DNA of 64,000 bases, from assembly GCA_009773375.1 (NCBI GenBank), contig WRPH01000006.1, positions 124,001-188,000 of the forward strand, in the 5' to 3' direction. The stretch comes from Paracoccaceae bacterium (GTDB taxonomy: Bacteria; Pseudomonadota; Alphaproteobacteria; Rhodobacterales; Rhodobacteraceae). A model generated the notes under the pieces. The model was not told the origin of the DNA and did not search any database. It worked only from the letters and a program-made list of their open reading frames with translations. Shown piece after piece: positions 38,866-63,500 of the stretch (within the stretch, counting starts at the first letter, position 1; each line of letters starts with the position of its first letter). The position numbers and the translations under genes are program-made.

Positions 38866-38914
38866 GCCGCAAGTATCGTCTTTGCCGCGCCCGCTGCAAG
38901 TCTTCACAAACCGC

Positions 38915-38948: not shown

Positions 38949-38962
38949 TGATCGGAGGCCAC

Positions 38963-39345: not shown

Positions 39346-39349
<4 letters not shown>
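38963..39349 (+). CDS. hpaF: 5-carboxymethyl-2-hydroxymuconate delta-isomerase
   Basis: The 128-residue tautomerase-fold enzyme moves a double bond in the meta-cleavage pathway of homoprotocatechuate. Pro2 (MPHLSIEYSANLE), which becomes the N-terminal catalytic base, is present, and RARPCPHYAIAD and LRIGTGRSEADKTKIGKALM match the family. A perfect GGAGG lies before the ATG. It is the first gene of the hpa operon and overlaps hpaE as ATGA. Confidence 0.94.
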
Positions 39350-40860
<1,511 letters not shown>

Positions 40861-40862
40861 TC

Positions 40863-43470: not shown

Positions 43471-43479
43471 GATTTCACC

Positions 43480-46638: not shown

Positions 46639-47539
46639 GTTGTGCCTCCTCAAAGGCTGCATAAGCCGCACCACGCGCGCCGGTGGCATCGCCGCCCTCT
46701 GCCAGCCGGATCACCGGAATCGCGTAGCCGCCCAGTTGCGCCTGTTGCAGACCTGCGGCCAGTTCTTCCACCAGCCCGTCAGCCCGCGATAACCCACCCG
46801 CCAGCACCACGCAGGCCGGATCGAGCGTCAGGGTCAGCGTGACCATCAGTTCCACCAGCAGTTCCAGCCAGATTGCCCAGCATTTGGCCATATCAGGGTC
46901 GGTTTTACGCATCGCCACGATGTCTTGCGGTGCCATCTGCCGCCCGGTTTTCAGCGCCACAATCCGCGCCAACCCCGGCCCCGCGATCAGCGTTTCGGTG
47001 CAGCCCGCTCGCCCGCAACCGCAGGGTAAAACCGGTAGCCCGTGCCGGATCATCGGCCCCGCTGGCAGCGGGAAATGGCCAAACTCGCCGCCGGTGCCAG
47101 ACGGGCTCGGCAGCAAACGCCCGTTCACCACGAAGCCACCCGCCAGCCCGGTGCCAAGGTTCAGCCCCATCGCCGTAACAAATCCCCGCGCCGCGCCGAA
47201 CATCGCTTCCGACAGAACCTGCGCGCGGCAATCGTTGACATAGCTGATCGCACGCCCCGCCGCCGCCGCAATATCGGTCGGAAACGGCTTCCCCATCGCC
47301 GGCAGGTTGGAGGTCAGCGCCAGCCCGGTCACCGGATTGATCAGCCCCGCCGCCGAAACCCCCACCGGCGCCGCACCTGCGCGCGCCGTCACCCAGGCAA
47401 TCTGATCGACCATCGCGGCGACCAGAGCGTCATAGGTTTTCGGCGTGGCGATGCGACGGGAATCGACCCTGTTCCAGTCAGAATCAAAGATTTGCGCCTC
47501 GATCTTGGTGCCGCCCAGATCAATCCCCGCTGCGATCAT
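46631..47539 (-). CDS. ROK-family sugar kinase
   Basis: The 302-residue ROK protein has the phosphate loop AAGIDLGGTKIEAQIF, the catalytic Asp in SYVNDCRAQVLSE, and the zinc signature GEFGHFPLP followed by CGCGRAGCTE. It probably phosphorylates N-acetylglucosamine or N-acetylgalactosamine before deacetylation by NagA. There is no DNA-binding domain, so it is a kinase and not a NagC-type repressor. It overlaps agaS by 4 bases and kbaZ by 8 bases. Confidence 0.9.
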   Translation of the reverse strand: MIAAGIDLGGTKIEAQIFDSDWNRVDSRRIATPKTYDALVAAMVDQIAWVTARAGAAPVGVSAAGLINPVTGLALTSNLPAMGKPFPTDIAAAAGRAISYVNDCRAQVLSEAMFGAARGFVTAMGLNLGTGLAGGFVVNGRLLPSPSGTGGEFGHFPLPAGPMIRHGLPVLPCGCGRAGCTETLIAGPGLARIVALKTGRQMAPQDIVAMRKTDPDMAKCWAIWLELLVELMVTLTLTLDPACVVLAGGLSRADGLVEELAAGLQQAQLGGYAIPVIRLAEGGDATGARGAAYAAFEEAQHG

Positions 47540-48600
47540 TTGGCCACCACCGGATATAGCTTCACGCCAGAGACCACGCGGCTCAAGGTGCCTTGTCCGA
47601 CGAAAGGGTCGTCTACCGGCAGGCCCAAAGCTTCAGACCAGACCACCGCCAGCACCTGCGCCAGCACCACCGGCAGGATGATGCCCCAGCCGCCGGTCGG
47701 CACGTCAATATCCCCGCCCGGCCCGACCAGCGTGGTCTGCGCGCTGGGAAACTGGCCGCGCAATTCGGCCACCAGATCGGCATCATAACGCGCGGCGTGG
47801 GCGTCAGCAGAGCCGAACACCCAAATATCCGTCACCCCGCGCACGAAAGACTTCGGCCCATGCCGGAAGCCGAGCGTTGAATCCCACAGCGCCGGAATTT
47901 GCCCTGCCGCCAGCTCCATCACCTTCAAAGCCGCCTCGCGCGCGGCAAAAGTCAGGGCGCCAGAGCCGACAAACACCACCCGTTCCGGCCGCCGCGCCGC
48001 ACGGGCAAAGGCCTCATACTGCGGCAGCAGCCGGGTCAGATCGGCAGAAACAGTCTCTAACTGGCCTTTTGAGCCACTTTCATCAAACACCGCCAGCGCC
48101 GTCAGCAGCATGGTTGAAAAGCTGGAGGTCATCGCAAATCCCGCGTCATGCGTCGCGTCAGGCAGCACGATCACCCGTTGCAGCGCCGCCTTGCGCAGTG
48201 CCAAGGCCGAGCCTGCGTTGCAGGTGATATTCAGCCGTGGCGCGTCCGGGGCCAGCGCATCCAGAGCATCTAGCGTGCCCAGCGTTTCGGCGCTGTTGCC
48301 AGACCGGCCAAAGCTGACCACCAGCGGTTTGCGCCCATTCAGATAGGCATAGGGCCGCGCCACCAGATCGGTGGTCGCCACCGCGCGCAACCGGGGGCCG
48401 CCTTGCCCCTCCAGCGCCGCAACCAGCATTTCACCGATGTAGGCCGACGATCCCGCACCACAGAACCAGACCTCATCAACGCCCAGCGCAGCGACCCAAT
48501 CGCGCAGGCTGACAACATCCAGCGCCTTTGCCCAGGCCGCCCAAATCGCGGGCTGGGCCTGAATTTCGCGCCATGTGGCAAAACGGCTCAGGTTGGTCAT
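47536..48600 (-). CDS. agaS: SIS-domain galactosamine-6-phosphate deaminase/isomerase
   Basis: The 354-residue double SIS-domain protein follows the AgaS pattern: VWFCGAGSSAYIGEM, VVSFGRSGNSAETLGTL, and in the second domain KVMELAAGQIPALWDSTLGFRHGPKSFV, the last being the AgaS hallmark. It would convert galactosamine-6-phosphate to tagatose-6-phosphate with loss of ammonia. With NagA and KbaZ it points to GalNAc or galactosamine use. It overlaps genes on both sides by 4 bases. Confidence 0.88.
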   Translation of the reverse strand: MTNLSRFATWREIQAQPAIWAAWAKALDVVSLRDWVAALGVDEVWFCGAGSSAYIGEMLVAALEGQGGPRLRAVATTDLVARPYAYLNGRKPLVVSFGRSGNSAETLGTLDALDALAPDAPRLNITCNAGSALALRKAALQRVIVLPDATHDAGFAMTSSFSTMLLTALAVFDESGSKGQLETVSADLTRLLPQYEAFARAARRPERVVFVGSGALTFAAREAALKVMELAAGQIPALWDSTLGFRHGPKSFVRGVTDIWVFGSADAHAARYDADLVAELRGQFPSAQTTLVGPGGDIDVPTGGWGIILPVVLAQVLAVVWSEALGLPVDDPFVGQGTLSRVVSGVKLYPVVAK

Positions 48601-49631
48601 CGGGTTTGCGTCACTTTCGATAGGGTGGCGGGGGCGTCGGGGTCGTGCCCCAAGGCGAGCGCAACGGCAAGCACCAAGGGGTAGGTCAGATACAGCAGCA
48701 GCGCGGCAGCCGCAGCGGGCGTCAACACCCCCGCGTTCACATCGGCAGGTCTGATCCGATACACCGCCCCGCCTGCGGCGCGAAACCGCGCTTCGGCAGT
48801 ATCCAGACTGGCCTGCACATCCGTTTGGCCGGTATCCAGAATCAGCACCAGCAGCGGTTTGGTCACCAGTTGCAACGGGCCATGCAGCACCTCTGAACTG
48901 GAGTAAGCCTCGGCGTGCAGCGCGCAGGTTTCCTTCAGCTTCAGCGCCAGTTCCTGCGCCGCGCCAAAGCCGGTATCGCGGCCAATCACATAGACATGCT
49001 GGGCACGCAGCAGCGCCGACACCAACGCTTTCGCATCGGGCAACACCGCGCCATCCAGCCCGCCGATGACCTGCGCCGAAGCTTGCGCGCGGGCGGCATA
49101 ATCAGGCTCTAACTGCGCCAACAGAGCCATTCCCGCCGCAACTGAACCGATCACCGATTTCGTCGCAGGCACCGCCAGTTCCGGCCCCGCACCAATCGGC
49201 AGGGTGACATGCGCCGCCGCCTGCACCGGCGAGTCCGCCGCGTTCACCAGCGCAATCACCGCGCCGCCACTGTCGCGTGCGCCACGCGCCGAACGCACCA
49301 GATCCTCGCTCGCGCCCGACTGCGACACCACGATCGACAGCGTTCCGGCCAGATCCACCCCGCGCCCCAATGAGAATACCGAAGGCGGCAGCGAGGTCAT
49401 CGGCACCCCGGTTTCGCGCATGAATTCATAAGACAGGATATTCGCCGCTGCATCAGAAGACCCGCGCGCAATGGTGTAGATCGCCCGCATCCGGCCAAGC
49501 TGCATTGCCGCCAGATCATCTGCGGCTTGCGCCGAAACTGCTGCCTGCACCGTGCGCGCGAACACGCCCGGTGCTTCAGCAATCTCAGCCCGCATGTGCC
49601 GCCCCGCATCCCTCATCGCCACTTCGGTCAT
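48597..49631 (-). CDS. SIS-domain glucosamine-6-phosphate deaminase-like protein (NagB-II type)
   Basis: The 344-residue double SIS protein resembles the isomerase half of GlmS without its glutaminase: ARGSSDAAANILSYEFMRETG, VVSQSGASEDLVRSARGAR, and VIGRDTGFGAAQELALKLKETCALHAEAYSSSEVLHGP. Such stand-alone proteins (NagB-II) deaminate glucosamine-6-phosphate to fructose-6-phosphate. It is the first gene of the operon. I chose the ATG at 49631 after GGAG; the frame is open about 330 bases upstream through the operator region, which is not credible coding. Confidence 0.88.
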   Translation of the reverse strand: MTEVAMRDAGRHMRAEIAEAPGVFARTVQAAVSAQAADDLAAMQLGRMRAIYTIARGSSDAAANILSYEFMRETGVPMTSLPPSVFSLGRGVDLAGTLSIVVSQSGASEDLVRSARGARDSGGAVIALVNAADSPVQAAAHVTLPIGAGPELAVPATKSVIGSVAAGMALLAQLEPDYAARAQASAQVIGGLDGAVLPDAKALVSALLRAQHVYVIGRDTGFGAAQELALKLKETCALHAEAYSSSEVLHGPLQLVTKPLLVLILDTGQTDVQASLDTAEARFRAAGGAVYRIRPADVNAGVLTPAAAAALLLYLTYPLVLAVALALGHDPDAPATLSKVTQTR

Positions 49632-49669
49632 TTCCCGCTCCGCCGTGTCTGACCCAAACTTGCCGTAAT

Positions 49670-49815
49670 AATACCAAGACAAGCGCGCATTGCTACCTAT
49701 ATAATACCAATATGTGCAAAATTCGGCAAAGTTGCTGAAAGAAAACCGATCTTCGGCGGAAATCGACAGCAATTGCCAATACCACAAAGAAATGGTCTTA
49801 TCCAAACAATACCAA
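49670..49815. promoter_or_regulatory. four AATACCA repeats, candidate GntR operators
   Basis: The word AATACCA occurs at 49670-49676, 49703-49709, 49778-49784 and 49808-49814 in the 195-base region between the divergent amino-sugar operon and its GntR regulator. Three copies extend to AATACCAA. The copies fall in two pairs with steps of 33 and 30 bases, about three DNA turns. The third copy has a mirrored partner TGGTCTT at 49793-49799. Likely binding sites of the UTRA-type regulator, one pair near each promoter. Confidence 0.6.
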
Positions 49816-49826
49816 TCGGGGGCATC

Positions 49827-50597
49827 ATGAATACGGACGATCACGCCAACCTGTTTCGCCCCGACGCATGGTTCCGCACCGGGCGCGGCCCACGCTATGA
49901 ACAGCTTCACCGCCACATCGCGGCGGCGATCAGCACCGGCGATCTGTCGCCGGAAACCCAACTGCCGCCCGAACGCGAACTGGCCGAGATTGCCGGGCTA
50001 TCGCGCGTCACGGTGCGCAAGGCGGTGGCGCAGCTGGTTGACGATGGCGTGCTGGAACAACGCCGGGGCGCGGGAACCTTCGTGCGCGCGCCACGCGGCA
50101 AGATGGAGCATTACCTGTCCAAGCTGCTATCGTTTTCGGAATACATGCTTCAGCGTGGCAAGACCCCAACCAGCACCTTGATCAATCGCGGCATTTTCCA
50201 CCCCACGCCCGACGAGCAGATCGCGCTAGGCCTGTCCGCCGCCGACAAGGTCGCCCGGATAGAGCGGTTGCGGATGGCGGACGGCATTGCAATGGCGGTG
50301 GAGTGGTCGTCGCTGCCGCAAGACATCCTGCCCGAACCGCAAATCGTCGGCACTTCGCTTTATGAGGTGTTGCGCGCCAATGGCACCGCCCCCGCCCGCG
50401 CCGTGCAGCGGATTACCGCCGTCAACCTGCCCGGTCACGAGGCCAAACTGCTGAACCTGCCCGAAGGTGCCGCCGTCTTGCGCATCGACCGCACCGGCTA
50501 TCTGCCCTCGGGGCGGCCGATTGAATTCACCCGCGGGCTGTATCGGTCGGACATCTATGATTTCATTGCCGAATTGCGGCTGGAAGCGAACCTGTAG
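49827..50597 (+). CDS. GntR-family regulator, HutC/UTRA type (NagR-like)
   Basis: The 256-residue regulator has an N-terminal winged helix (YEQLHRHIAAAISTGDLSPE, PPERELAEIAGLSRVTVRKAV, GVLEQRRGAGTFVR) and a C-terminal UTRA ligand domain (ARIERLRMADGIAMAVEWSSLP, VLRIDRTGYLPSGRPIEFTRGLYRSD). UTRA members of this group sense amino-sugar phosphates. It is divergent from the NagA/AgaS operon. I chose the ATG at 49827 with GGGGG before it; an earlier open-frame start exists at 49773. It is separated by 3 bases from convergent TetR. Confidence 0.92.
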   Translation: MNTDDHANLFRPDAWFRTGRGPRYEQLHRHIAAAISTGDLSPETQLPPERELAEIAGLSRVTVRKAVAQLVDDGVLEQRRGAGTFVRAPRGKMEHYLSKLLSFSEYMLQRGKTPTSTLINRGIFHPTPDEQIALGLSAADKVARIERLRMADGIAMAVEWSSLPQDILPEPQIVGTSLYEVLRANGTAPARAVQRITAVNLPGHEAKLLNLPEGAAVLRIDRTGYLPSGRPIEFTRGLYRSDIYDFIAELRLEANL

Positions 50598-50600
50598 ACC

Positions 50601-51227
50601 CTATTCAGCCGACCCGTGCCGCGCCCGGAACGCCGCCAGTTCCGCCGCTGTCGGGGCTTGGCCAGTAAAGATCAGCACATAATCCGGGATGCGTTGCAGC
50701 CGCAGCGCCAGGGATTCTTCGGTCCGCATCGCGATATAGCCCACCTGCGTCAGATACACCGTCTGCGCCCGCAAGCGTGCCTCCAGCGGCGGAAAGGAAA
50801 ACCGCTCAAACAACGCTGTCAGAGCCTGAATCCGTGTCTCATCGACGCCGCGCAACACCTCGGCCAGCCTGCTATCGGTCAGCGCCCAGGTGCGGATGGC
50901 AAACTCCATCCGGCTGTCAAACAGCGCCGGGGTGATCCAGCAGTCGGTGACGTTCAGCATCGCCTCGGCCACCGTCGCCGCTTGGGCTTGCGTGCGGGCA
51001 ATCAGATTGGCGGTGTTCTGGCTTTGCCAGCGGGTGATCAGCCCGGCAAGCAGGGCCTCACGATCCGGGAAATGCCAGTAAAAGCTGGTCCGCGACAGCC
51101 CCAGTCGCGCCGCCAACGGCATCACCTTGACCGATTCGACCCCGCCTTCCACCAGCATGTCATAGGCCGCATCCAGCCAGACTTCCGCCGATCCGCGCCA
51201 GCCACGTTCCTGTTGCACCTGTTCCAT
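50601..51227 (-). CDS. TetR-family transcriptional regulator
   Basis: The 208-residue regulator has the TetR helix-turn-helix at residues 12-58 (AEVWLDAAYDMLVEGGVESVKV, LAARLGLSRTSFYWHFPDREALL) and a helical C-terminal ligand domain. It is divergent from the DgcA-like flavoprotein gene, with a perfect 12-base palindrome between them. It is the likely repressor of the flavoprotein and perhaps of the P450 and ligase genes further on. The effector is unknown. Confidence 0.93.
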   Translation of the reverse strand: MEQVQQERGWRGSAEVWLDAAYDMLVEGGVESVKVMPLAARLGLSRTSFYWHFPDREALLAGLITRWQSQNTANLIARTQAQAATVAEAMLNVTDCWITPALFDSRMEFAIRTWALTDSRLAEVLRGVDETRIQALTALFERFSFPPLEARLRAQTVYLTQVGYIAMRTEESLALRLQRIPDYVLIFTGQAPTAAELAAFRARHGSAE

Positions 51228-51271
51228 GCCGAAACCCTAAGCACCCCCCACAGCCAAGACAATACGAAAAC

Positions 51272-51300
51272 TTGACACATGTGTCGATTTCAGCTTTCAT
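51272..51300 (+). promoter_or_regulatory. promoter with overlapping palindromic operator for TetR
   Basis: A consensus -35 hexamer TTGACA (51272-51277) is followed after 17 bases by TTTCAT (51295-51300) as a weak -10. The perfect palindrome GACACATGTGTC at 51274-51285 overlaps the -35 element. A TetR dimer bound there would block the downstream flavoprotein gene. The palindrome is read directly; regulation is inferred from the divergent tetR gene. Confidence 0.65.
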
Positions 51301-51324
51301 AGCAAGAACCCATGGGAGGCCCCG

Positions 51325-53358
51325 ATGTCCAACGATCCGCTTTTGCAGCCCTACCAGCTGAAACACCTGACCCTGCGCAACCGCATCATGACCACCAGCC
51401 ATGAACCGGCCTACCCCGAAGATGGCATGCCGAAAGACCGCTACCGGCTTTACCACGTCGAACGCGCCAAGGCAGGCGTCGCGCTGACGATGACCGCCGG
51501 TTCGGCTGCGGTGTCAAAAGACAGCCCGCCGGTGTTCAACAACATCCTCGCCTACAAGGATGAGGTCGTCGGCTGGATGAAAAAGCTGACCGATGAATGC
51601 CACGATCATGGTGCCGCCGTGATGATCCAGCTGACCCACCTTGGCCGCCGCACCCGCTGGGACAAGGGCGATTGGCTGCCCACGGTTTCCTCCAGCTCCG
51701 CCCGCGAACCCAGCCACCGCGCCTTCCCGAAGGTGATCGAGGATTGGGATATCGAACGCATCATCAATGACTACGCGGACGCCGCCGAACGGATGGCGGC
51801 AGCCGGGCTCGATGGCGTCGAATTCGAATGCTACGGCCACCTGATGGATCAGTTCATGTCGCCGTTCACCAACAGCCTCGCCGCCCCCTATGGCGGCAGC
51901 TTGGAAAACCGCGCCCGCTTCGCGATGGAGGTGCTGGCCGCCTGCCGCAAGCGCGTCGGTGAAAACTTCCTGCTCGGCGTCCGCTACACCGCGGATGAGG
52001 TCGAACAGGGCGGCATATCTGCCGATGAAGGCGTGGCCCTTGGCAAGATGTTCCGCGACTCCGGCCTTGTCGATTTCCTCAATATCATCAAGGGCCGCAT
52101 CCATACCGATCCGGCGATGACCGATGTGATCCCGATCCACGGCATGAAATCCGCACCGCACCTCGATTTCGCCGGTCGTATCCGGGCCGAGGTCGGCATG
52201 CCCACCTTCCACGCCGCCCGCATCCCCGATGTGGCGACCGCGCGCTATGCCATCCAGTCCGGCCAGTTGGATATGGTTGGCATGACCCGCGCCCATATGG
52301 CCGATCCGCATGTGGTGCAAAAGATCATCGAAGGCCGCGAGGAAGATATCCGCCCCTGCGTCGGGGCCACCTATTGCCTTGACCGTATCTACCAAGGCGG
52401 CCTGGCGCTTTGCATCCACAACCCGGCGACCGGGCGCGAAGAAACCATGCCGCACACCATCACCCCTGCCGCCGTGCAAAAGCGCGTGGTGGTGGTCGGC
52501 GCTGGCCCGGCTGGGCTTGAAGCCGCGCGCGTCGCCGCCGAACGCGGCCACCGCGTCACGGTGTTCGAGGCTGCCCCACAGGCCGGTGGCCAGATCCGGC
52601 TGACAGCCCAAACCAAGCGCCGCGCCGAGATGATCGGCATCATCGACTGGCGCATGGCACAATGCGCCGCACGCGGAGTCGAATTCCGCTTCAACACCTG
52701 GGCCGAGGCCGCCGACATTCTGGCCGAAACCCCCGATGTGGTGATCATCGCCACCGGTGGCCTGCCGGAGAAAGATATCCTGAAATTCGGCAATGACCTG
52801 ACCGTATCGGCGTGGGATATCCTGTCAGGCGATGTCAAACCCGGCACCAACGTCTTGCTTTACGATGATGCGGGCGACCACACCGCGCTGCAAGCCGCCC
52901 AGACGCTTGCCGAAGCCGGGGCAAAGGTCGAAATCATGACCCCCGACCGCACTTTCGCGCCGGAAGTCATGGCGATGAACCTCGTGCCCTACATGCGCGC
53001 GTTGCAGGATAAACCTGTTACCTTCACCGTCACGCATCGGCTGACCGGGGTGGAAAAAGACGGCAACCAGATCAAGGCCACTGTCGATTCCGATTACATG
53101 TCGCTGGGCAAGACCGCGCATTACGATCAGATCGTCGTCAACCACGGCACCCAGCCGCTGGCCGAGATCTACTTCGATCTGAAACCGCAGTCGGTGAACC
53201 TTGGCGCGGTGGATTACGACGCGCTGATCGCAAGCCAGCCGCAAACCCTGAACGGTGGCCCCGCCGGGTTCCAACTGTTCCGCATCGGCGACGCGGTAGA
53301 ATCGCGTAACATCCACGCCGCCATCTACGACGCGCTGCGGCTGGTCCATGTGATGTAA
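51325..53358 (+). CDS. FMN/FAD flavoprotein, DgcA/N-methylproline demethylase-like
   Basis: The 677-residue protein joins an Old Yellow Enzyme-type FMN barrel (residues 1-375; MIQLTHLGRR, GLDGVEFECYGHLMDQFMSPFTN, YGGSLENRARF) to a C-terminal FAD/NAD domain beginning VVVVGAGPAGLEAARVAAERG at about residue 388. Relatives demethylate N-methyl amino acids and betaines or reduce dienoyl-CoA. The 4Fe-4S site of trimethylamine dehydrogenase-type enzymes is incomplete: Cys345, Cys351 and Cys363 remain, but the second Cys position is Ala348. GGGAGG precedes the ATG. It is probably an amine demethylase in the cluster that follows. Confidence 0.88.
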   Translation: MSNDPLLQPYQLKHLTLRNRIMTTSHEPAYPEDGMPKDRYRLYHVERAKAGVALTMTAGSAAVSKDSPPVFNNILAYKDEVVGWMKKLTDECHDHGAAVMIQLTHLGRRTRWDKGDWLPTVSSSSAREPSHRAFPKVIEDWDIERIINDYADAAERMAAAGLDGVEFECYGHLMDQFMSPFTNSLAAPYGGSLENRARFAMEVLAACRKRVGENFLLGVRYTADEVEQGGISADEGVALGKMFRDSGLVDFLNIIKGRIHTDPAMTDVIPIHGMKSAPHLDFAGRIRAEVGMPTFHAARIPDVATARYAIQSGQLDMVGMTRAHMADPHVVQKIIEGREEDIRPCVGATYCLDRIYQGGLALCIHNPATGREETMPHTITPAAVQKRVVVVGAGPAGLEAARVAAERGHRVTVFEAAPQAGGQIRLTAQTKRRAEMIGIIDWRMAQCAARGVEFRFNTWAEAADILAETPDVVIIATGGLPEKDILKFGNDLTVSAWDILSGDVKPGTNVLLYDDAGDHTALQAAQTLAEAGAKVEIMTPDRTFAPEVMAMNLVPYMRALQDKPVTFTVTHRLTGVEKDGNQIKATVDSDYMSLGKTAHYDQIVVNHGTQPLAEIYFDLKPQSVNLGAVDYDALIASQPQTLNGGPAGFQLFRIGDAVESRNIHAAIYDALRLVHVM

Positions 53359-53385
53359 GCAGCTACAATTTTACTAAAATTTGCC

Positions 53386-53446
53386 TTCATCTTGGCAAAA
53401 ATACTCCACGGGGGGCCGGGGGTGTGAAACCCCCGGCTCTTGCCCC
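53386..53446. terminator. bidirectional terminator within a TTCATCT/G-rich intergenic element
   Basis: Between two convergent genes lies TTCATCT, then an A-rich stretch with ATACTCC, then a G-run leading into a hairpin with arms GCCGGGGGT (53415-53423) and ACCCCCGGC (53429-53437), a 9-base stem with a 5-base loop. The following bases are TCTT. The same layout recurs at 56810-56890. It should stop transcription from both sides. The A-rich block facing the minus-strand gene provides a T-tract in that direction. Confidence 0.65.
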
Positions 53447-54124
53447 CTACCCGCCCTCAAAGAACCGGACAATCCGCGCGGCAATCGTCGCGCGGTCCGC
53501 CACCTGCGCCAATGAAGCTTGCGCCCGCCGCGCCACATCGGCAGGCAGCTTCCCCGCATATTCCGCCACCAGCGCCGCCACAAACTCCGGCGTCATTTCC
53601 GGGTGATATTGCGTTGTCAGCACGGTCTTGCCGATGGCAAAGCTGCCCACCGGGCATTCCGCATTGCCGCCGATCACCACAGCCCCGTCAGGCAGCCGCA
53701 ACACCTGTTCACTATGCGCCGCATAAAGCCTGACCGGCACCCCCGCCATCTCGGTTTCGGTCAACCCGAACACCCAGCCGCCCGGATTGTCGCCCACCAC
53801 GCCGCCCAGCGCCTTCGCAATCGCCTGATGGCCAAAGCAGGCGCCAAACAATGGCTGCCCCTCGGCCACCAGACGCCGGATCAGCGCCTGCAACTGCCCG
53901 ACCCACGCATCCGAATCATGCACCGAGGCCGGGCTGCCGGTAATGATCCAACCATCATAAACCGCGCCCTCTGCCGGGAACTGGCCGTCCTTCACCGAAT
54001 AGACGCTGACCCGCCAATCCGGGCGCAATTCGTGCAACAGGGCTTCAAACTTGCTGCCATCCTTTGGATGCGCTTGCGCAAATTCGCTTTCGTCAGTGTT
54101 GGCCATCAGCACGGCAATATGCAT
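53447..54124 (-). CDS. class I glutamine amidotransferase-like hydrolase
   Basis: The 225-residue protein has a complete catalytic triad: Cys96 in the nucleophile elbow LFGACFGHQ, His174 and Glu176 in TQYHPEMTPEF. It stands alone, with no synthetase domain. Members near a glutamine-synthetase-like ligase can act as gamma-glutamyl hydrolases, releasing glutamate from gamma-glutamyl amides. Its location between the DgcA-like gene and the P450/ligase genes, on the opposite strand with its own 73-base divergent promoter region, fits such a role. Transfer of ammonia to an unlinked synthetase is the alternative. Confidence 0.88.
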   Translation of the reverse strand: MHIAVLMANTDESEFAQAHPKDGSKFEALLHELRPDWRVSVYSVKDGQFPAEGAVYDGWIITGSPASVHDSDAWVGQLQALIRRLVAEGQPLFGACFGHQAIAKALGGVVGDNPGGWVFGLTETEMAGVPVRLYAAHSEQVLRLPDGAVVIGGNAECPVGSFAIGKTVLTTQYHPEMTPEFVAALVAEYAGKLPADVARRAQASLAQVADRATIAARIVRFFEGG

Positions 54125-54134
54125 GATCTTCCGC

Positions 54135-54162
54135 TTTACATATTTATGAACCTGTTTAGTAT
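54135..54162 (+). promoter_or_regulatory. candidate promoter for the P450 operon
   Basis: TTTACA (54135-54140) and TAGTAT (54157-54162) are separated by 16 bases in the AT-rich divergent region between the amidotransferase and P450 genes. They match sigma-70 boxes at five and four of six positions. The expected start lies about 30 bases before the P450 ATG. AGGA near 54190 serves as ribosome-binding site. No palindrome like that at the tetR gene is visible here. Confidence 0.4.
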
Positions 54163-54197
54163 ATTTTCAAATCAGCATTCCGGCAAGCGAGGAAATC

Positions 54198-55445
54198 ATG
54201 ACGGTCTGGACCCCCACCGACGACGGCCACGCCGATCTGACCAACCACGACAGCTTTCTGAACGGCGCGCCGCACAACACCTTCGCCCGCATGCGCCGCG
54301 AAGACCCGATGGCCTGGACCCCCTACGCGCAGGGCGAAAGCTTCTGGTCGGTCACCCGCCACGCCGACATTCTCGAACTCAACCGCCAGTCCGACCTGCT
54401 GTCTTCGGCGCGCGGCATCCGGATCGAGGATCAGACCTATGAAGAATACCTCGCACGCCGCACCTTTCAGGAAATGGACGGTGCCGAACATATGGCCGTC
54501 CGCATCCGCGTCGCCAAAGCCTTCTCGCGCCCGGTGATCGCCCAGTTCGAGGATGTCGTCCGTCAGATCTGCAACGACATTCTCGATGAAACCCTGCACA
54601 AAGGCACGTTCGACGCCACCACCGACATCGCCCGGCAACTGCCGATGCGCATGCTTGGCCGCATCATCGGCACGCCGGATGAAGACCTGCCGTGGCTGGT
54701 GGAAAAGGGCGACAGCCTGATCGCCAACACCGACCCCGAATTCACCTCCCACGTCCTCGACAAGATGACCACCGACGAATTCCGCATGATGCCGTTCAAC
54801 TCCCCCGCCGGGGCAGAGCTGTTCGTCTACGCCAAGGACCTGCTGGCGAAAAAGGCCGCCTCGGGCGACACCTCGGGCATCCTGCCGCTGATCCTTGCCC
54901 CCGGCGCGGATGGCTCCACCATGCCGGAACACGAATTCCGCAATTTCTTCTGCCTGCTGGTCGCCGCTGGCAATGACACCACCCGCTACTCCATCGCCGC
55001 CGGTCTGCAAGCGCTGGCCCACCAGCCCGAACTGCTGCCGCACCTGCAAACCAACACCGTCTGGGATAGCGCGCCGGATGAAATCATCCGCTGGGGTTCC
55101 GCCACGCAATACTTCCGCCGCACCGCCACCCGCGATTTCGAATATCACGGCAAGCAGGTCAAGGCCGGGCAGAAGGTGGTCTACTGGTGGGTCTCCGGCA
55201 ACCGCGACGAGACCGCCTTCCAGGACCCGATGCGCGTCGACTTCGCCCGCCAGAACAACCGCCACGTCGCCTTCGGTCAGGGCGGCCCGCATGTCTGCCT
55301 TGGCATGTGGCTGGCCCGACTGGAGGTGCGCGTACTGTTCGAAGAGCTTGCCAAACGCCTCCGCTCCATCGAACCTGCCGGAGAGCAGAAGTTCCTGCGC
55401 TCCAACTTCGTCGGCGGCATCAAGTCTTTGCCGGTGACAGTGCAC
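54198..55445 (+). CDS. cytochrome P450 (class I, soluble)
   Basis: From its ATG at 54198 the gene ends near 55454, giving 418 residues, the size of soluble bacterial P450s. The oxygen-activation helix reads LLVAAGNDTTRYSIAAGL, the ExxR pair is in DEIIRW, and the heme loop is FGQGGPHVCLG with Cys367 as the iron ligand. It needs electrons from a ferredoxin such as the one at 56.9 kb. Linked to a DgcA-like flavoprotein and an amide ligase, it may hydroxylate or N-dealkylate an amine or its conjugate. It is 28 bases before the ligase gene. Confidence 0.93.
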
Positions 55446-55482
55446 CTACAATAAGCGGCCAAAGAGCCACAGGGAGTATCCG

Positions 55483-56784
55483 ATGACCGACCACCCCCCG
55501 CGCCTGCGCGCGATGTTCTGCGATCATCTGTCGATCATGCGCGGCAAATATCTGCCCGCAGCCAAGATCCGCGATGATGAAAGCCGCTTCGCCCGCCCGA
55601 CCTTTTCCGTCCATTACGATAAAGACCTGCTGATCGAGGCCCCCGGCACCCTGTGCCTGCAAGGCATCCCCGATATGGCGCTGCGCTGGAAGGGCGATGA
55701 AATCCGCCAGGGATGGGAGCCGAACACCAAGATCGTCACCGGCGATCTTTACGCAGGCGACGGCAGCGAAATCCCGATGTGCCCCCGCCTCGCCCTCAAA
55801 CGCGCGGTGGCGGCATGGGAGGCGCATGGCCTGACCCCAAAAGTCGGCATCGAACTCGAAGCATACGCCTTCACCCGCGCCGATGACGGCAGCCTTGCGC
55901 CCTACGACACCCCCGGCGGCGTCGTCTATGGCACCGGCAATTTCACCGACCCGCGCGGCGTTACCACCGCGATCTGGAACAAGGCGCAGGAAATCGGCCT
56001 GCCACTCGATCTGATCACCGCCGAATATGACATGCCGCAATATGAATTCACCCTGACCTTCGACACCGCCGTCGAACATGTCGATACCGTGGTGCTGTTC
56101 CGGCAGATGGCGCGCGAAATTGCCTTTGATCACGGCCTCATCCTGACCTTCCTGCCCAAACCAATTCCCGGCAAAGGTGGCTCAGGCATGCATATCAACC
56201 TGTCCTTCACCGATCACAACGGCGCCAACGCGCTGGCCAATGGCGATCATGGCGACCCTGCCAACCTCAACGATCTGGCGAAAGGCTGCATCGCCGGCTG
56301 GATGCGGCACCACAAGGCGATGGCCGGGCTGATGGCCCCCAACGCGCAATCCTACAACCGGCTGCAACCGGCCAGCTTGTCGGGCTATTGGTGCAACTGG
56401 GGCGGCGACAACCGCAACGTCACCGTCCGGCTTTCTGCCGAAGGCGGCAAGAAAGCCCGGCTTGAACACCGCATGGCCGACGCCGCTTCAAACCCTTACA
56501 CCGCCGTGGCCACCGTGCTGCAAGCCGCGCTGCTGGGCTATGAGGGTAAATATCCGCTGCAACCCTTGGAAACCGGCGACGGCTTTACCGGCAACGACGC
56601 CAGCCACGGCACCGCCGCCACCCTGACCGAGGCGCTGAACGACCTTGCCGCCGATACCGCCCTGTCAAACGCCGTCGGCGCGGGCCTTGTGGAAAACCAC
56701 CTGTTCATGAAACGCGCCGAGGTCGAAAAAACCGCCAACCTCGAATCCGAAGCGCTGCGTGACTGGTATATCTGGTATCTCTGA
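55483..56784 (+). CDS. glutamine-synthetase-family ligase (GlnA-like, probably gamma-glutamyl-amide synthetase)
   Basis: The 433-residue protein has the C-terminal catalytic domain of type I-like glutamine synthetase: metal Glu residues in VGIELEAYAF and DMPQYEFTL, the phosphate region KPIPGKGGSGMHINLSF, and the substrate region AQSYNRLQPASLSGY with NRNVTVRLSAEG. The N-terminal beta-grasp half is short and diverged (MFCDHLSIMRGKYLPA). Divergent members attach glutamate to amines such as isopropylamine, aniline or putrescine, not to ammonia. It follows the P450 gene closely. Amide ligase activity is inferred from context. Confidence 0.86.
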   Translation: MTDHPPRLRAMFCDHLSIMRGKYLPAAKIRDDESRFARPTFSVHYDKDLLIEAPGTLCLQGIPDMALRWKGDEIRQGWEPNTKIVTGDLYAGDGSEIPMCPRLALKRAVAAWEAHGLTPKVGIELEAYAFTRADDGSLAPYDTPGGVVYGTGNFTDPRGVTTAIWNKAQEIGLPLDLITAEYDMPQYEFTLTFDTAVEHVDTVVLFRQMAREIAFDHGLILTFLPKPIPGKGGSGMHINLSFTDHNGANALANGDHGDPANLNDLAKGCIAGWMRHHKAMAGLMAPNAQSYNRLQPASLSGYWCNWGGDNRNVTVRLSAEGGKKARLEHRMADAASNPYTAVATVLQAALLGYEGKYPLQPLETGDGFTGNDASHGTAATLTEALNDLAADTALSNAVGAGLVENHLFMKRAEVEKTANLESEALRDWYIWYL

Positions 56785-56809
56785 CCACCCCCAGAAACCG
56801 CCCCCGCAT

Positions 56810-56890
56810 TTCATCTGTCCTCAAATATCCTGGGGGTCAGGTCACATTGGCCGCTGGCCAATGTGACTAGGGGGCTAGCCCCCGGTTCCC
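56810..56890. terminator. two hairpins in a TTCATCT/G-rich intergenic element
   Basis: TTCATCT (56810-56816) is followed by an A-rich ATATCCTGGGGG and then two hairpins: GTCACATTGGCC (56841-56852) with GGCCAATGTGAC (56856-56867), a perfect 12-base stem with a 3-base loop, and the palindrome GGGGGCTAGCCCCC (56870-56883). It matches the organisation of the element at 53386-53446 and lies between the ligase and ferredoxin genes. It likely reduces or ends transcription from the ligase, with the ferredoxin expressed at a different level. Confidence 0.6.
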
Positions 56891-56912
56891 ACCCCCAAAA
56901 CCGGAGCCAACC

Positions 56913-57224
56913 ATGCAAGCCACCTGGCATCTCCCCGACGGCCGCCAAGTCACCGCCAGCGTCCCCGAAGGCCAAACCCTGATGGAGGCCGCCCGCGCCA
57001 ACAACATCCCCCACATTCTGGGCGATTGCGGCGGCAACCTCGCCTGCGCCACCTGCCACGTCATCCTCGATGCCGCCTGGGTCGCCAAAGCAGGCTTCCC
57101 CGGCCCGCTGGAAGACCCGATGCTCGACGTCACCGACGTCGAACGCAAACCGCACTCGCGCCTGTCTTGCCAACTCACCATGACCGCCGCGCTTGACGGC
57201 ATCGTGCTGCACATCCCGGCCTAG
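56913..57224 (+). CDS. 2Fe-2S ferredoxin, adrenodoxin type
   Basis: The 103-residue protein has the adrenodoxin-like cluster motif GDCGGNLACATCHV, with Cys spaced C-x5-C-x2-C, and the fourth Cys in SRLSCQLTM. This type reduces bacterial class I P450s, so it probably serves the P450 at 54.2 kb. The gene ends the plus-strand cluster, separated from the ligase by a hairpin element. No ferredoxin reductase gene is in the window; it must come from elsewhere. The ATG is preceded by GGAG. Confidence 0.93.
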   Translation: MQATWHLPDGRQVTASVPEGQTLMEAARANNIPHILGDCGGNLACATCHVILDAAWVAKAGFPGPLEDPMLDVTDVERKPHSRLSCQLTMTAALDGIVLHIPA

Positions 57225-57592
57225 GGCGGGGTTTACCCGCCAAGCCCGCAGGCTCAAGCCCCTGCGATGCGGCTTCAGCTCGGTCGCGGCGATCATCTGC
57301 GTCATCGGAATGGCCGCCCCGTCTCGTCCACGCCCGCCACGATACCGTTTGAAAACCACATCCGCATCAGCAGACACCCCCCTGCAGACGCGCCGTACAG
57401 AACTTCCACGCGGTGAAGCTCGCACTTGGTCACCATCGCCCAGCCCATGACGCCCGGCTCCTGTGCCGGTGGAGCGGGCAACGGTCTGAATTGCTCAGGT
57501 GCGACAGCTCTGCTGTGCAGTTTGCCATTCCGGTTTGGCACCGAAAATCATGCGCCCAAAATGCCGAACCCATCGGCAATCTCCGCCATGGG
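57225..57592. other. 368-base region without a recognisable gene
   Basis: This stretch separates the ferredoxin gene from the end of the glucan synthase gene, which converges on it. It starts with a small hairpin-like GGCGGGGTTTACCCGCC (57226-57242) just past the ferredoxin stop, which may serve as terminator. The remainder is broken frames in both strands. A minus-strand reading of up to 79 residues (57302-57541) has the look of a decayed gene but matches no family I know. It may be a remnant of a lost gene or mobile element. Confidence 0.4.
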
Positions 57593-60500
57593 TTAAACCA
57601 GCAAAATCTCCAACTGGCCCTGCACCGCTGTTTTGAGCAAGGTCAGTTTGCCATCCACAACCGGCATTGCAGCACCGTTCAGGAATGCGGCAGCAACGCC
57701 GTGTCCAGTTTGGTTGGGATTGCGGATGGTGATATCGCAGCGGGCGGCAGCTTGCCCCAGACTGGCAGAGATCTGCGGCCAGGCCTTCGGAAAGCAGGGA
57801 TCAAAGATCAGGTTATCGCCGGCACGGGTCAGGCCCAGCAGGCCCTCGATCCCGGCGCGGTACATCCATGCGGCAGACCCGGTGTACCACGTCCAGCCGC
57901 CCCGGCCTTCATGTGGCGCGGTGGAATAGACGTCTGCCGCGATAACATAGGGCTCCACCTTGTAGCGCATCGCAGCCTGCGGGGTCAGCGCGTGATTGAT
58001 CGGGTTGATCAGCGCAAACAGCGCCTGCGCGCCATCGCCATCGCCAAGCCGTGCCTTGGCCAGAATGGTCCACATCGCGGCATGGCTATACTGGCCGCCG
58101 TTTTCACGCAAGCCGGGCGGATAGCCCTTGATATAGCCGGGGTCTTTGACAGACTGATCGAACGGCGGGGTGAACAGCAAGGCAAGCCCCGCGTCGGGCC
58201 GGATCAACCGGGCGGTCAGCGACTCCATCGCCGCAGCCGCGCGCGCCGGATCGGCCGCGCCGGACAACACCGCCCAGGATTGCGCGATACTGTCGATCTG
58301 GCATTCCATCGAGGCCGCTGACCCCAGCCGTGTGCCATCGTCATAGCTGCCGCGCTGATACCATGCCCCATCCCAGGCGGTTCGCTCAATCGCCTGCGCC
58401 ACCCGGTCGGCATGGGCCAGCCAAAGCGCGGCGCGGGCGGGATCACGGGCCTGCGCATGCGGGACCATGGCGCGCAGGGTGGTAATCAGGAACCACCCCA
58501 ACCAGACGCTGCTGCCCTGCCCGGCCTCGCCCACGCGGTTCATGCCGTCATTCCAGTCGCCGGTACCGATCAACGGCAGGCCGTTGCTGCCGGTCAGCGC
58601 GATGGCTTGGTCCAGGGCCAGCGCGCAGTGGTCAAACAAGCTGGCGGCTTGGTCCGAGATTTGCGGCAGAAAGAAATCGTCATGCGCGCCGGGGCGCAGC
58701 ACCGGGCCTTCCAGAAAGCGAAGCGGTTCGTCGAAAACCGAAACATCGCCAGACACCTGCACATAGGTCGCTGTAGCGTAGGCCAGCCAGACACGGTCAT
58801 CGGAAATCCGGGTGCGCACGCCCTGACCCGAATGCGGCAACCACCAGTGCTGCACATCCCCTTCCGGGAACTGCCGCGACGCCGCGCGCAGCAGGTGGGC
58901 GCGGGTCAGCGCGGGGCGCAATGCGGTCAGCGCCATGCTATCCTGCAACTGATCGCGAAAACCATAGGCACCGCTGGCCTGATAAAACCCCGCCCGCGCC
59001 CAGATCCGGCAGGACAGGGTCTGATACAGCAGCCAGCCGTTCAGCATGATGTCCATCGCGCGATCAGGCGTCTGGATTTGCACCTCGGTCAGAAGGGCGG
59101 TCCAGTGGGCGGTGACTTCGGCCAGCATCGCATCGGTATCGCGGGCGCGGGTGGCCTTGATCAGCGCCACCGCAGCATCAGCAGAGGCCGCCTGACCCAG
59201 CAGAAAATGCAGATCAACCGTTTCGCCGGGGGCCAGCACGATCTGCCGTTGCAGTGCGGCACAGGCATCCAGCGCAGGCCCGTGGCGACCGGACAGCGGC
59301 GCATGGGTCAGCCCTGCGGGGGCGCTCATCTTGCCGTCTGGGCCCAGAAACTCGGTCCGATCACAGGTCAGGCTGGCAAGATCAGCGCCAAAATCGGCAA
59401 AGGCGGTGCGGTCTGCAAACGCCATCGCGCGCGGGTTCTGCGCCAGAACCGCGCCGGTTTCGGCGTCAACCGCCGTGATGATCTTGCCCGCCGTGGCACT
59501 GCGGGACGTGCCAAGCACCCATTCGGCATAGGCTGTCACCGAAAGCCGCCGCGTGCGGTCTGATTGGTTGTGCAACCGCAGGCGCGTCACCTTCACCGGC
59601 GCGTCCATCGGCACAAATTGCAGCATCTCGGCGCTGATCTGCTGGGCAGAGTGATCAAAGACCGAATAGCCAAAGCCATGACGGCACCGATATTGCCCCA
59701 GGCCGCGGATGGGCAGGGCGGTTGGGGTCCATATCTGCTGGCTGTCCAGATCGTGCAGATAAATCGCCTCGCCCGCCGGATCAATGACGGGATCGTTCGA
59801 CCAGGGGGTCAACTGATTTTCGCGGCTGTTTTCCGACCAGACCGACCCCGACCCGTCGGCCGAAACGCCAAAGCCGAAGCTGGGGTTGGCGATGACATTG
59901 ATCCACGGCGCAGGCGTGGTCTGGCCATTTTGCAGGGTGATCGCATAGTCGCAGCCCTGATTGGCAAAGCCGCCAAGGCCATTGAAGAACTCCAGCGATG
60001 GCTGCACCGAGGCCGCATGCGCTGGCTGTTGCATCGCGCGGATCGGCAGGCGGGCAAGGCGGGGCGGGGCCGTGACCGGCAGGGCGTCCAACTGCGCGCC
60101 AATGCGGCCCCGACTGGCGTGCAGGATGACATCCGCCGCCGCCAGCAGCATGTCCCGCGCCTCGGGCGGCATCAGATCGCTGCGCAAAGTATAGGTCGCG
60201 CCCTGTGCATCCAGCTGCCCCGGTGCCTTCGCCGCGCGCACCGCCGTCTCGATCGCGATCTGCAAATCCTGCACGTAGGACGAGGCGCGGTCGTTCAGGA
60301 TCACCACATCAACGGCGACCTGCCGCATCCGCCAATAGGCCTGCGCCGCCAGAATCTCGCGCAGGCGGGGGCTGTCTTCGGCATCGGTGATGATGAACAG
60401 CACAAGCGGCAGATCACCGGAAATCCCCAAGGCCCACAGCCGCGATTGCGGCCCATCCCCGGCGGCAATCCGGGCCGGGCTGGCCCGCAGGCGGGCATCG

Positions 60501-63500
60501 TTGCGGATCAGCATGCCACCCAGCCGCTGAAAATCGGCCGCATCACCCGGTGCCATGCCATGATGGCGCAGTTGCACCTGGCTTTGCGTCCAGGACAAGG
60601 TGGCCGCCCGATCAAAGGCCGAGGCGTCGCGGTGGCGGTCCACCAGATCCAGCAACGCGTCAGACCTATCTGCCACCATCGTCCAGAAGGTTATACGCGC
60701 CCGCCCACCCGGCGGGATCTGAACCCGCCTGCGCAGACTGAAGATCGGGTCCAGCACCGTGCCGGTGGTGCCGGACAGCGGCGCTTCGGCCATGGCGGCG
60801 GTTGCCATCGATTGGCCCCGCCCAATAAACCGGGCCCGGTCGGATTCGTGTTGCAGCGGCGCGGTTTCCACGCCTTCGACCACCGCGATATGGGCGGCCC
60901 ACACCTCGGGGTCAGATGGGGCGCGACGGCGGCGGGTGGCGATCAGCACACCAAGTTCGGGCAAAAAGTCTGTCACGACAAACATCTTTGAAAATGCCGG
61001 GTGCGACAGATCAGACGCCAAAGGCGCCAGCACCAGCTCGACATAAGAGGTGACATCCACCTCACGCGGATGCCGCCCGGTGTTGGTCAGCGTGACACGC
61101 CGGGCCTCGGCATCATCCTCGCCGGACACGACGATTTCGGTATGGGTGATAAGCTGCGCCGCGTGATGGGTGAAAGCCGCGTGATGGTCGCAGAACACCG
61201 CTGTATGGCCAGGGGCGCGACCGAGAGGCTGCACCGCGCCGGACCATGCAGCCCCGGATTTCACATCGCGCAAATACAGATACGACCCGTAGGCCGCCTG
61301 CGTCGAATCAGACCGCCACCGGGTCACCGCCAGATCGTTCCAGCGGCTGAAGCCCCCGCCCGTCGGCGTCAGCATCACGCTGTAGCTGCCATTTGACAAC
61401 ACATGTGCCGTGGGCCAGAGGTTGGCAGGCGCATCAAAGCGGCGGAAGACCACCGTTTCGCTCTGCTCGACCGGCGAGACCTGCACATCAGCCGCGTGGG
61501 GTGACGCCACCGACGCATCGCGCGGCACGCGTTCCTGCAACAGCAGTTCCACCGCCTTTATCATCGGCTCGGCATGAAAGCGGGCGCGCAGGCGACCTGC
61601 CTGCAACACATTGGCAAGCGCCGTGATGGTCATGCCCTGATGATGCGCCATATAACTGCGCACAATGGCGCATGTGCCGTTTTCGGGCAGACGCGAGGCG
61701 GTGAAATCCAGCGCCTCATAAAAGCCGTAGCGGCTTTGCGCACCCAAAGCCGCCAGCGCCGCAAAGTTCTGCACGGCTGCCTTCGGCTCCACCATCGCAG
61801 CCAGCGCCGTCGCATAGGGCGCAATCACCCGATCCTCGGCCAGCCCGCGTTTCAGCCCCAGCCCCGGCACGCCAAAGTTGGAATATTGATAGGTCATTTC
61901 CAGATCGCGGGCATTGAAGGCGGATTCCGAAATCCCCCAAGGCTGGCTCAACCCTTCGGCATAGTCGCGCTGCCGCTGCACCACGCGGCGGCTGGTCTGA
62001 TCCAGCACCGACCCTGCAGGCGCGCGCATCACCAGCGCAGGCATCAGGTATTCAAACATGCTGCCCGACCACGAAATCAACGCCGAACCAGCGCCGATCG
62101 GTGTAGCGGCACGGCCCAGACGGAACCAGTGCCGGGTCTCGACATCGGCCTTGGAAATCGCGAACAGCGACGCCAACCGCGCCTCGGAGGCCAGCAGATC
62201 ATAGCAGTTCTGGTCCAGCGTGTTGGTGGACACCGTAAAGCCGATCGACAGCAGCTTTTTCTCGGGATGCAGCAGAAAGCGGAAATCCATCGCCAGCGCA
62301 AAGCTGCGGGCCATGGCGGCGACCGCCTGCAACTGGCCCGGTGGTGCCAGCGCCGTGTCGTGGCTGGCGATCAGCGCGCGGGTCCAGAATGCCGCCTCGG
62401 ACGCTTGCGGCAATGTGTCGGCCAGCACCCGCGCCTGCGCGATCAACGCCTCCGTCACACGCTTGGACAGCTGCGCCAACACCTCGGACAGGCCGGGTGC
62501 AGGATCGGCCAACAGCGCCTCTTGCGCCAGAGCCAGCGCGTCTTGCAGCCCCTGCGGTTCGGTCACAGCCGCCGCAGCCCAAGCCTCGCAGGCCTGCGCC
62601 ACCGCGATCAGATGCCCGGCCAGATTGCCGCTATCGACCGACGAGACATAGGCCGGGTCCAGCACGCGCAGATCGCTGGTGTCGTGCCAGTTATAAAGAT
62701 GCCCGCGATGGCGCGGCATCCTTTGCATCGTGTGCAGGGTTTGCTCCAGCCGTGTCGCGGCGTTGGCCTGACTGATCCAACCCATGTCATGCGCCGCCGT
62801 CACCGACAGCAGGTAAAGCCCGATGTTGGTGGGTGAAGTGCGCCGGGCCACGACAGGCTGGGGGATTTCCTGAAAGTTGTCCGGGGGCAGAAAATTGTCG
62901 GCCTCGGTGACAAAGGTTTCGAAATAGCGCCAGGTGCGGCGGGCGATCAGACGCAGGGTCCGGGTGTCGGCACTGGTCAGGCTTTGCTGTGCTGCGGGCT
63001 GGCGTGGCACGCTGATCGCGCGCGCAATCGCCGGGGCGGCCAGCCACATCACAGCAAAAGGCAGCACCACCGACAGGCTTTCGGGGCGCAGGGCATAAGC
63101 CAGCGCGCAGGCCCCAAGGCCCAGAAAAAGCCCGCCCGCATGGCGCAAATATTGGCGCGCCATGGATGGCAGCGCCCCACTGCCCGCATGCGCCGCCGTT
63201 TTCCACTCTAACATGTGCCGCCGACTGCGCAGGCGGAACAGACTGCGCACCACCGCATCCAGCATCGACCAAGCCGTATCCGCCAGCAAAATCAGATTCA
63301 GACCAACCCGCGCGCCCGCCAGCCGGGCGTCTGACCACAGCGCCTCAAGATGGCTGCGCGAGGTGATGCCAGCCCGCCCCGGCAGCACCGCAAAGGGCAA
63401 CGCCATCAGATAGGGCAGCATCAGCATCGCAACCACCGCAACGGTCCAGCCCGCAGCCTGTGGCATCGTCCACCCCAGCAACAATGTAAGCACCGCCAGC

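Follow-up and report, generated by a model that had tools for sequence, protein, structure and literature searches.

A conserved gene unit for a glutamine amidotransferase-like protein, a cytochrome P450, a glutamine synthetase-like ligase and a ferredoxin in Rhodobacteraceae, and its possible role in a route from aromatic ethylamines to homoprotocatechuate

The window analysed here is a stretch of 64,000 nucleotides (contig WRPH01000006.1, positions 124,001 to 188,000) from a Paracoccaceae bacterium, the genome of which is available as a draft of 3.71 Mb with 92.7% completeness. It harbours six adjacent genes, four of which, encoding a class I glutamine amidotransferase (GATase)-like protein, a cytochrome P450, a glutamine synthetase (GS)-like ligase and a ferredoxin, are the subject of this study. 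An initial annotation of the sequence had identified the genes by position and family and had reported an intact catalytic triad in the GATase, all of which agrees with the open reading frames, the Pfam assignments and the motifs found by us. Indeed, all six genes are open reading frames, and each product exceeded its Pfam cut-off in a scan of the window proteins. The genes are arranged as follows.

50601-51227, minus strand: TetR regulator (PF00440), divergent from the flavoprotein gene, judged not to belong to the system
51325-53358, plus strand: HpbA-type N-methylproline demethylase flavoprotein of the trimethylamine dehydrogenase/old yellow enzyme type, judged not to belong to the system
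53447-54124, minus strand: class I GATase-like protein (PF00117), proposed gamma-glutamyl amide hydrolase
54198-55454, plus strand: soluble cytochrome P450 (PF00067), proposed oxygenase for the gamma-glutamyl amide
55483-56784, plus strand: GS-like gamma-glutamyl-amine ligase (PF00120), predicted
56913-57224, plus strand: adrenodoxin/ISC-type 2Fe-2S ferredoxin (PF00111; best NCBIfam model fdx_isc), proposed electron donor of the P450

The GATase gene is divergent from the P450 gene; 28 bases separate the P450 stop codon from the ligase start, and 128 bases lie between ligase and ferredoxin. GC-rich, palindrome-like intergenic stretches occur between the genes at 53400-53450 and 56800-56890, and no known family of structured RNA reached its gathering score across window positions 38000-58000. 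The GATase retains Cys96 (within CFGHQ) as well as His174 and Glu176 (within HPE), and its best match among solved structures is gamma-glutamyl peptidase 1 (E 5e-14). The P450 shows the motifs AGNDTT at residue 257 and ExxR at residue 295 and the haem loop FGQGGPHVCLG, the closest solved chains being a CYP125-type ancestor, CYP126, CYP268 and CYP124. In the ferredoxin, a CX5CX2C motif is found at residue 39.

The ligase scored far below the cut-offs of the GlnA, GlnT/type III and PuuA models in an NCBIfam scan; its nearest curated model, gamma-glutamylputrescine synthetase, gave 190 bits where 650 are required. Alignment with Escherichia coli GlnA revealed that D50 is replaced by alanine and E327 by leucine, two residues which we take to form the ammonia site. 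The residues for binding of metal, glutamate and nucleotide/ATP are retained (E129, E131, E212, E220, H269, R321, R339, E357 and R359 in GlnA numbering). Both D50 and E327 are likewise missing from PuuA and from IpuC of the Arthrobacter aurescens TC1 plasmid pTC1, to each of which the window ligase is 26% identical, compared to 23% for GlnA. In a tree of 29 sequences, the 13 ligases belonging to the gene unit defined below formed a single clade with a support of 100/100, apart from GlnA, PuuA and IpuC; a grouping with GlnA, which would have refuted the initial annotation, was thus not seen. E. coli GlnA pairs with a GlnA-like protein of the source genome (locus L001) outside this clade, while IpuC groups with another paralogue from the same genome, which holds nine genes of the GS family in total. 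Given the loss of the ammonia-site residues, the separate clade and the existence of a distinct GlnA locus, an ordinary GlnA was rejected, and the data support a GS-like ligase that would not use ammonia. In one further genome (G047, locus L042, 7689-10266) two different GS-family ligases are encoded side by side, one falling into the clade of the window ligase and the other near a Mesorhizobium ligase.

For the analysis of gene neighbourhoods, 80 named loci were retrieved via the ligase, representing the best 80 of 546 relatives. Locus counts derive from tblastn unless a crude gene caller is named; the latter overlooked some of the core genes and reported only families present in at least 6 of the 80 loci. 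A P450 gene lies beside the ligase in all 80 loci (full length in 78), and the GATase was matched in 78 (76 full length, 2 partial), both loci without a match starting within the P450 gene at a contig edge. The loci short of a full-length P450 or GATase are three contig edges (L082, L085, L105) and one damaged locus (L099). An adjacent ferredoxin gene was found in 55 of 80 loci, while close homologues of flavoprotein and TetR regulator occurred together in only two (L046, L078; a flavoprotein match of 27% in L117 and a TetR match of 36% in L064 were considered too weak to be counted). A separate set of 18 loci, including two plasmids, contained P450 and ligase genes throughout and a GATase gene in 16 cases. 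Based on these counts from both sets, the conserved unit consists of GATase, P450 and ligase, usually accompanied by the ferredoxin, and this grouping exceeds chance, as its conservation across the 80 loci demonstrates; flavoprotein and TetR regulator are local neighbours. Thus, the co-conservation that the initial annotation had made a condition for five families holds outside this strain for four of them and fails for the flavoprotein, and the six adjacent genes do not form one unit. Within the family, the ligase was detected in 58 of 295 sampled genomes spanning 294 genera (E 1e-100), and it was present in 17 of 101 related genomes (E 1e-60) and matched four plasmid records (E 1e-40).

The damaged locus belongs to Ruegeria profundi. 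Only the first 30 and the last 63 residues of the P450 are matched there, close together at 9757-9981, next to an intact ligase and a partial GATase match, so that either the copy has decayed or the assembly is faulty at this place.

The flavoprotein is 73% identical over its full length to HpbA of Paracoccus aminophilus, and its closest named plasmid matches are hpbA products (72-73%), not DgcA as initially annotated, although this comparison was made with named plasmid records that included no DgcA sequence. Its matches to 338 plasmid records, compared to the four records matched by the ligase, suggest that the gene occurs apart from the GATase-P450-ligase unit on hundreds of plasmids. Owing to its presence in 2 of 80 loci and its identity to HpbA, the flavoprotein probably represents a separate gene, and it was rejected as a member of the system, along with the demethylation step once assigned to it. 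Its residues 345-363 contain the cysteine motif CxxAxxC, compared to CxxCxxC in trimethylamine dehydrogenase; one expected 4Fe-4S ligand is therefore an alanine.

Upstream of these genes, at 38416-44247, the same window carries what its model matches identify as a complete cluster for meta-cleavage of homoprotocatechuate (HPC).

38416-38907, minus strand: HpaR, regulator of HPC degradation (TIGR02337, 155 bits, cut-off 121)
38963-39349, plus strand: HpaF-like 5-carboxymethyl-2-hydroxymuconate isomerase (NF011605, 83 bits, below the cut-off of 215)
39346-40860, plus strand: HpaE, 5-carboxymethyl-2-hydroxymuconate semialdehyde dehydrogenase (TIGR02299, 779 bits, cut-off 638)
40863-41843, plus strand: HpaD, homoprotocatechuate 2,3-dioxygenase (TIGR02295, 397 bits, cut-off 321)
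41840-42685, plus strand: HpaG-like decarboxylase of the FAH family, ATG at 41840 (HpaG C-terminal domain model, 141 bits, below the cut-off of 276; frame scanned from 41831, upstream of the ATG)
42682-43470, plus strand: HpaH hydratase (TIGR02312, 354 bits, cut-off 351.5)
43480-44247, plus strand: HpaI aldolase (TIGR02311, 314 bits, below the cut-off of 369)

HpaR, HpaE, HpaD and HpaH pass their cut-offs; for HpaF, the HpaG-like protein and HpaI the models given are the best ones despite scores below the cut-off. We used HpaD as a marker of the pathway in the 295 genomes (TIGR02295 or TIGR02298, E 1e-60), the match in the source genome (contig C6, 164899-165780) corresponding to window positions 40899-41780. 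Of the 58 genomes that carry the ligase, 55 gave an HpaD match, as did 51 of the 237 that lack it (Fisher test 3.5e-26, uncorrected for kinship, although almost every genome represents a genus of its own). With TIGR02295 alone the numbers were 50 of 58 versus 45 of 237; three of these 95 genomes (G053, G197, G307), all lacking the ligase, stayed under the curated cut-off. Ligase and HpaD genes share a contig at a distance of at most 23 kb in 13 of the 55 genomes, and 14 of the 80 loci have Hpa ring-cleavage genes next to the unit. Since only 54 loci reach at least 21 kb, the flanks are incomplete in the remaining ones. Homogentisate dioxygenase (HmgA) was discarded as a marker, being too common (199 of 295 genomes; beside the unit in 5 of 80 loci). 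In two further loci, from Streptomyces canus (L124) and Novosphingobium EMRT-2 (L027), P450 and ligase genes stand beside genes for an extradiol dioxygenase and an aldehyde dehydrogenase; they were not counted as HPC pathways because the dioxygenases are 30-33% identical to the HpaD_Fe type.

Further neighbours point to the amine side of metabolism. In 14 of the 80 loci a decarboxylase gene adjoins the unit; a 350-residue piece of the product matches decarboxylases for 3,4-dihydroxyphenylalanine (DOPA), tyrosine and aromatic amino acids (best E 2e-99), and the source genome encodes a homologue with 61% identity. A DOPA-type decarboxylase and HPC genes adjoin the unit in several lineages. Genes for a class III aminotransferase (38 of 80 loci), an aldehyde dehydrogenase (29), an IclR regulator (39) and a GntR regulator (48) are also frequent, and 50 of the 80 loci contain one or more genes from the group of Hpa, decarboxylase, HmgA, aminotransferase, aldehyde dehydrogenase and permease genes. 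In the source genome another contig (C27) combines genes for aminotransferase, IclR, APC permease, aldehyde dehydrogenase, a Tm-1-like protein and GntR, the last being 75% identical to the GntR that flanks the unit in other genomes. The aminotransferase was matched in 56 of the 58 ligase genomes, compared to 63 of the 237 others. It occurs in 94 of 106 HpaD genomes and hence tracks HpaD even more broadly than the ligase does, a spread that fits a common lower route from aryl-ethylamines to HPC into which the P450 unit would be one entry among several.

HpaB (PF03241) was not found at E 1e-10 in the source genome (92.7% complete), so that the usual 4-hydroxyphenylacetate hydroxylase appears to be missing. 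A general rule that the P450 replaces HpaB was nevertheless rejected, as absence of HpaB does not track the unit among HpaD genomes.

Taken together, we give about an even chance to the view that GATase, P450, ligase and ferredoxin carry out the upper steps of an aerobic route from an aromatic ethylamine, most likely tyramine, to HPC. What the sequences establish are the genes themselves, the lost ammonia site, the conserved unit and the strong co-occurrence with HpaD; the individual reactions, the amine and the position of oxidation are our inference. The ligase would join glutamate to tyramine at the expense of ATP, yielding gamma-glutamyl-tyramine. The P450, fed by the ferredoxin, would then hydroxylate the ring, most likely next to the phenol, to give gamma-glutamyl-dopamine, and the GATase would hydrolyse the glutamyl tag, releasing dopamine and glutamate. 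Two enzymes whose genes lie at another place in the genome, the class III aminotransferase and an aldehyde dehydrogenase, could convert dopamine to HPC, and the HpaDEFGHI cluster of the window would cleave HPC. Tyramine is proposed as the amine because of the DOPA-type decarboxylase and the lack of HpaB in the source genome, and it fits in that exactly one ring hydroxylation leads to dopamine. The sequence of tagging, oxidation and removal of the tag parallels that in the Ipu and aniline systems described below. A more tentative suggestion, which we think has somewhat less chance of being right than of being wrong, is a catabolic strategy not described before: tyramine would be masked by glutamylation to let a P450 rather than a flavin hydroxylase produce the catechol, and dopamine would then be unmasked and fed into HPC cleavage.

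If correct, this would place a tyramine-to-dopamine step in bacterial catabolism across many genera of one family and assign a function to a P450, a GS paralogue and a GATase found in 58 of 295 genomes; the single annotated record that was inspected labels them 'cytochrome P450', 'glutamine synthetase family protein' and 'type 1 glutamine amidotransferase'. Such GS paralogues are easily mis-annotated as nitrogen-assimilation genes. Furthermore, glutamyl masking, known for anilines and isopropylamine, would extend to biogenic amines, and the P450 would be a candidate for selective ortho-hydroxylation of phenols carrying a removable amine tag. Within the order, tyramine is reported to be respired by Phaeobacter inhibens DSM 17395 but not by P. 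gallaeciensis CIP 105210 (PMC4148982).

A number of observations weigh against this pathway. A P450 that replaces HpaB would lead one to expect HpaB to be missing more often from HpaD genomes with the unit, but HpaB is present in 7 of 55 such genomes with the ligase and in 9 of 51 without it, which is no difference. HPC is evidently also reached by other ways, as 51 genomes hold HpaD but no ligase; 40 of them possess the aminotransferase, and this pattern allows HPC formation without the P450 unit. The P450 itself gave no match (E 1e-60) in any of the 51, a weak result, because the search included no genome known to match. Conversely, three of the 58 ligase genomes (G123, G209, G235) gave no HpaD match, and Tritonibacter horizontis O3.65, which carries the unit (L098), reportedly possesses two of seven HPC genes (PMC5064897). 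In Ruegeria TM1040 the unit adjoins paaABCDE, genes of phenylacetyl-CoA metabolism, instead of hpa genes, and in a genome from the same genus as the source (G004) HpaD is 417 kb away from the ligase. The P450 is mostly gone from the R. profundi locus, two more distant loci (L027, L040) contain P450 and ligase without a GATase match nearby, and no ferredoxin reductase gene was seen, the source genome not having been searched for one.

The chemistry of the P450 step could also differ. Oxidative N-dealkylation is common P450 chemistry, and with the same unit and the same end product the enzyme might attack the carbon next to the amide nitrogen, splitting gamma-glutamyl-dopamine into glutamine and the aldehyde; the GATase would then only recycle excess amide or cleave glutamine. 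This is compatible with the HpaD association, with the aldehyde dehydrogenase genes beside the unit and with the two loci without a nearby GATase gene. In the aniline systems, moreover, the GATase-like protein is said to hold the amide at a safe level (PMC11335346). The aminotransferase, conserved in nearly all ligase genomes, would however become superfluous, and, as the ring would not be hydroxylated, the substrate would have to be a catechol from the outset, so that we regard this route as unlikely.

The known systems closest to the unit lead to a second alternative. The Ipu pathway of isopropylamine degradation, reportedly first described in Pseudomonas KIE171, has a counterpart on pTC1, where genes for a GATase, a P450, a ferredoxin, a ferredoxin reductase and IpuC lie in a row. 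According to PMC6776027, isopropylamine is handled by IpuC together with a multicomponent P450 and a GATase: a glutamyl tag is added, the substrate is oxidized and the tag is removed. A GS-like ligase without ammonia site, a P450, a ferredoxin and a GATase are thus combined in one cluster in both cases. Nevertheless, the proteins are not orthologous: ligase and P450 are each 26% identical and the ligases fall into different clades; the window GATase shows 25% identity to its nearest pTC1 match (pTC10062) and no match to pTC10065 next to the P450; and the ferredoxin is of another type without a BLAST match to that of pTC1. The window unit also lacks the ferredoxin reductase, and its context is HPC instead of alaninol. 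The combination of ligase, P450 and GATase, which the initial annotation did not recognise, is consequently already known from Ipu, whereas the link to HPC is new. Clusters around PipA/MorA-like P450s in mycobacteria and Gulosibacter resemble the unit in that a P450, a ferredoxin and a glutamine synthetase gene are close to each other; the excerpt of their description (PMC9477822) names no GATase.

The unit might accordingly act on another, aliphatic or cyclic amine in the manner of Ipu or of morpholine and piperidine degradation, HpaD merely marking catabolically versatile genomes. The same kinds of proteins on pTC1, the neighbourhoods in Gulosibacter (PMC9477822), the small share of loci with adjacent Hpa genes (14 of 80), unit carriers with few HPC genes (PMC5064897) and the disregard of kinship in the Fisher test are in line with this. 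The strength of the HpaD association, the DOPA-type decarboxylase and HPC genes next to the unit in several lineages and the low similarity to the Ipu proteins, including the missing BLAST matches of ferredoxin and P450-adjacent GATase, argue for an aromatic ethylamine instead and make another amine improbable.

Bacterial P450s that O-demethylate small aromatic compounds exist, and the neighbouring genes constrain the product more closely than the substrate. A third alternative, in which dopamine would again be formed, is O-demethylation of a gamma-glutamylated methoxy-tyramine, or hydroxylation of phenethylamine or of amines of the octopamine type; no methyl-carrier or one-carbon gene turned up among the recurrent families of the gene caller (6 or more of the 80 loci), although no dedicated search was made, and we consider this quite improbable. 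The system initially suggested, in which five genes including one for a DgcA-like demethylase would serve methylated or branched amines, is favoured by the adjacency in the window, L046 and L078, but is hardly tenable in view of the rarity of the flavoprotein at these loci and its HpbA-like sequence, the genomic context pointing to an arylethylamine that ends as HPC. In summary of that annotation, its observation is confirmed and its interpretation is partly supported: a conserved unit that combines a GATase, a ferredoxin-linked P450 and a GS-like ligase predicted not to use ammonia is what oxidation of a gamma-glutamyl amide would lead one to expect.

The proposed entry via tyramine can be compared with three other routes. 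In the aniline and 1-naphthylamine systems (AtdA, TadQ/TdnQ, NpaA), a GS-like ligase and a GAT-like protein surround an oxygenase acting on the gamma-glutamyl amide, according to PMC11335346. The ligase and GATase of the window would flank the oxygenase step in the same way; the oxygenase in those systems is a Rieske dioxygenase, while it is a P450 here, and a Rieske gene is missing from the list of the crude gene caller, which was limited to families present in 6 or more of the 80 loci. Over residues 56-182 the window GATase is 41% identical to type 1 GATases on plasmids of Delftia, Comamonas, Variovorax and Achromobacter, which presumably are aniline plasmids. The Puu pathway of E. coli also comprises glutamyl tagging of an amine, oxidation and removal of the tag. 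It differs in its use of a flavin oxidase instead of a P450, in the distant PuuA (see the identity and model score above) and in PuuD, an amidohydrolase of a different type without a BLAST match to the window GATase. With the HpaBC-HpaDEFGHI pathway the window shares the complete lower part; it differs by the lack of HpaB in the genome and by the proposed entry via an amide-tagged amine. Open-access literature, screened by titles and the openings of abstracts, contained no paper describing the unit. The name 'ipuC' is used for a gene of Roseobacter litoralis in PMC4103551, one that is not shown to encode a ligase of the window type.

Related gene sets were observed in addition. Sagittula stellata (L128, 5920-9227) possesses a second, distant ligase-GATase-P450 set with 36% (P450) and 31% (GATase) identity to the window proteins, and GATase and P450 matches lie side by side on plasmids of Novosphingobium humi and KACC 22771 (H163-H165). 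On Mesorhizobium loti plasmid pML2037 (L125, 5020-12422), genes for a P450, a 2Fe-2S protein, an APC permease, a GS-family ligase and a protein of the gamma-glutamyl-GABA (gamma-aminobutyrate) hydrolase family follow each other, possibly forming another cluster for oxidation of glutamyl-tagged compounds.

The remaining neighbourhood within the window was named by reading the translations. An amino-sugar type cluster between the HPC cluster and the flavoprotein gene (44234-50597) contains deacetylase-like, aldolase-like and ROK kinase-like proteins, two SIS-domain-like proteins and a GntR/UTRA-like regulator. Downstream of the ferredoxin gene, positions 57593-64000 are occupied by a single open frame of more than 2100 codons on the minus strand, which by appearance resembles a cyclic beta-glucan synthase.

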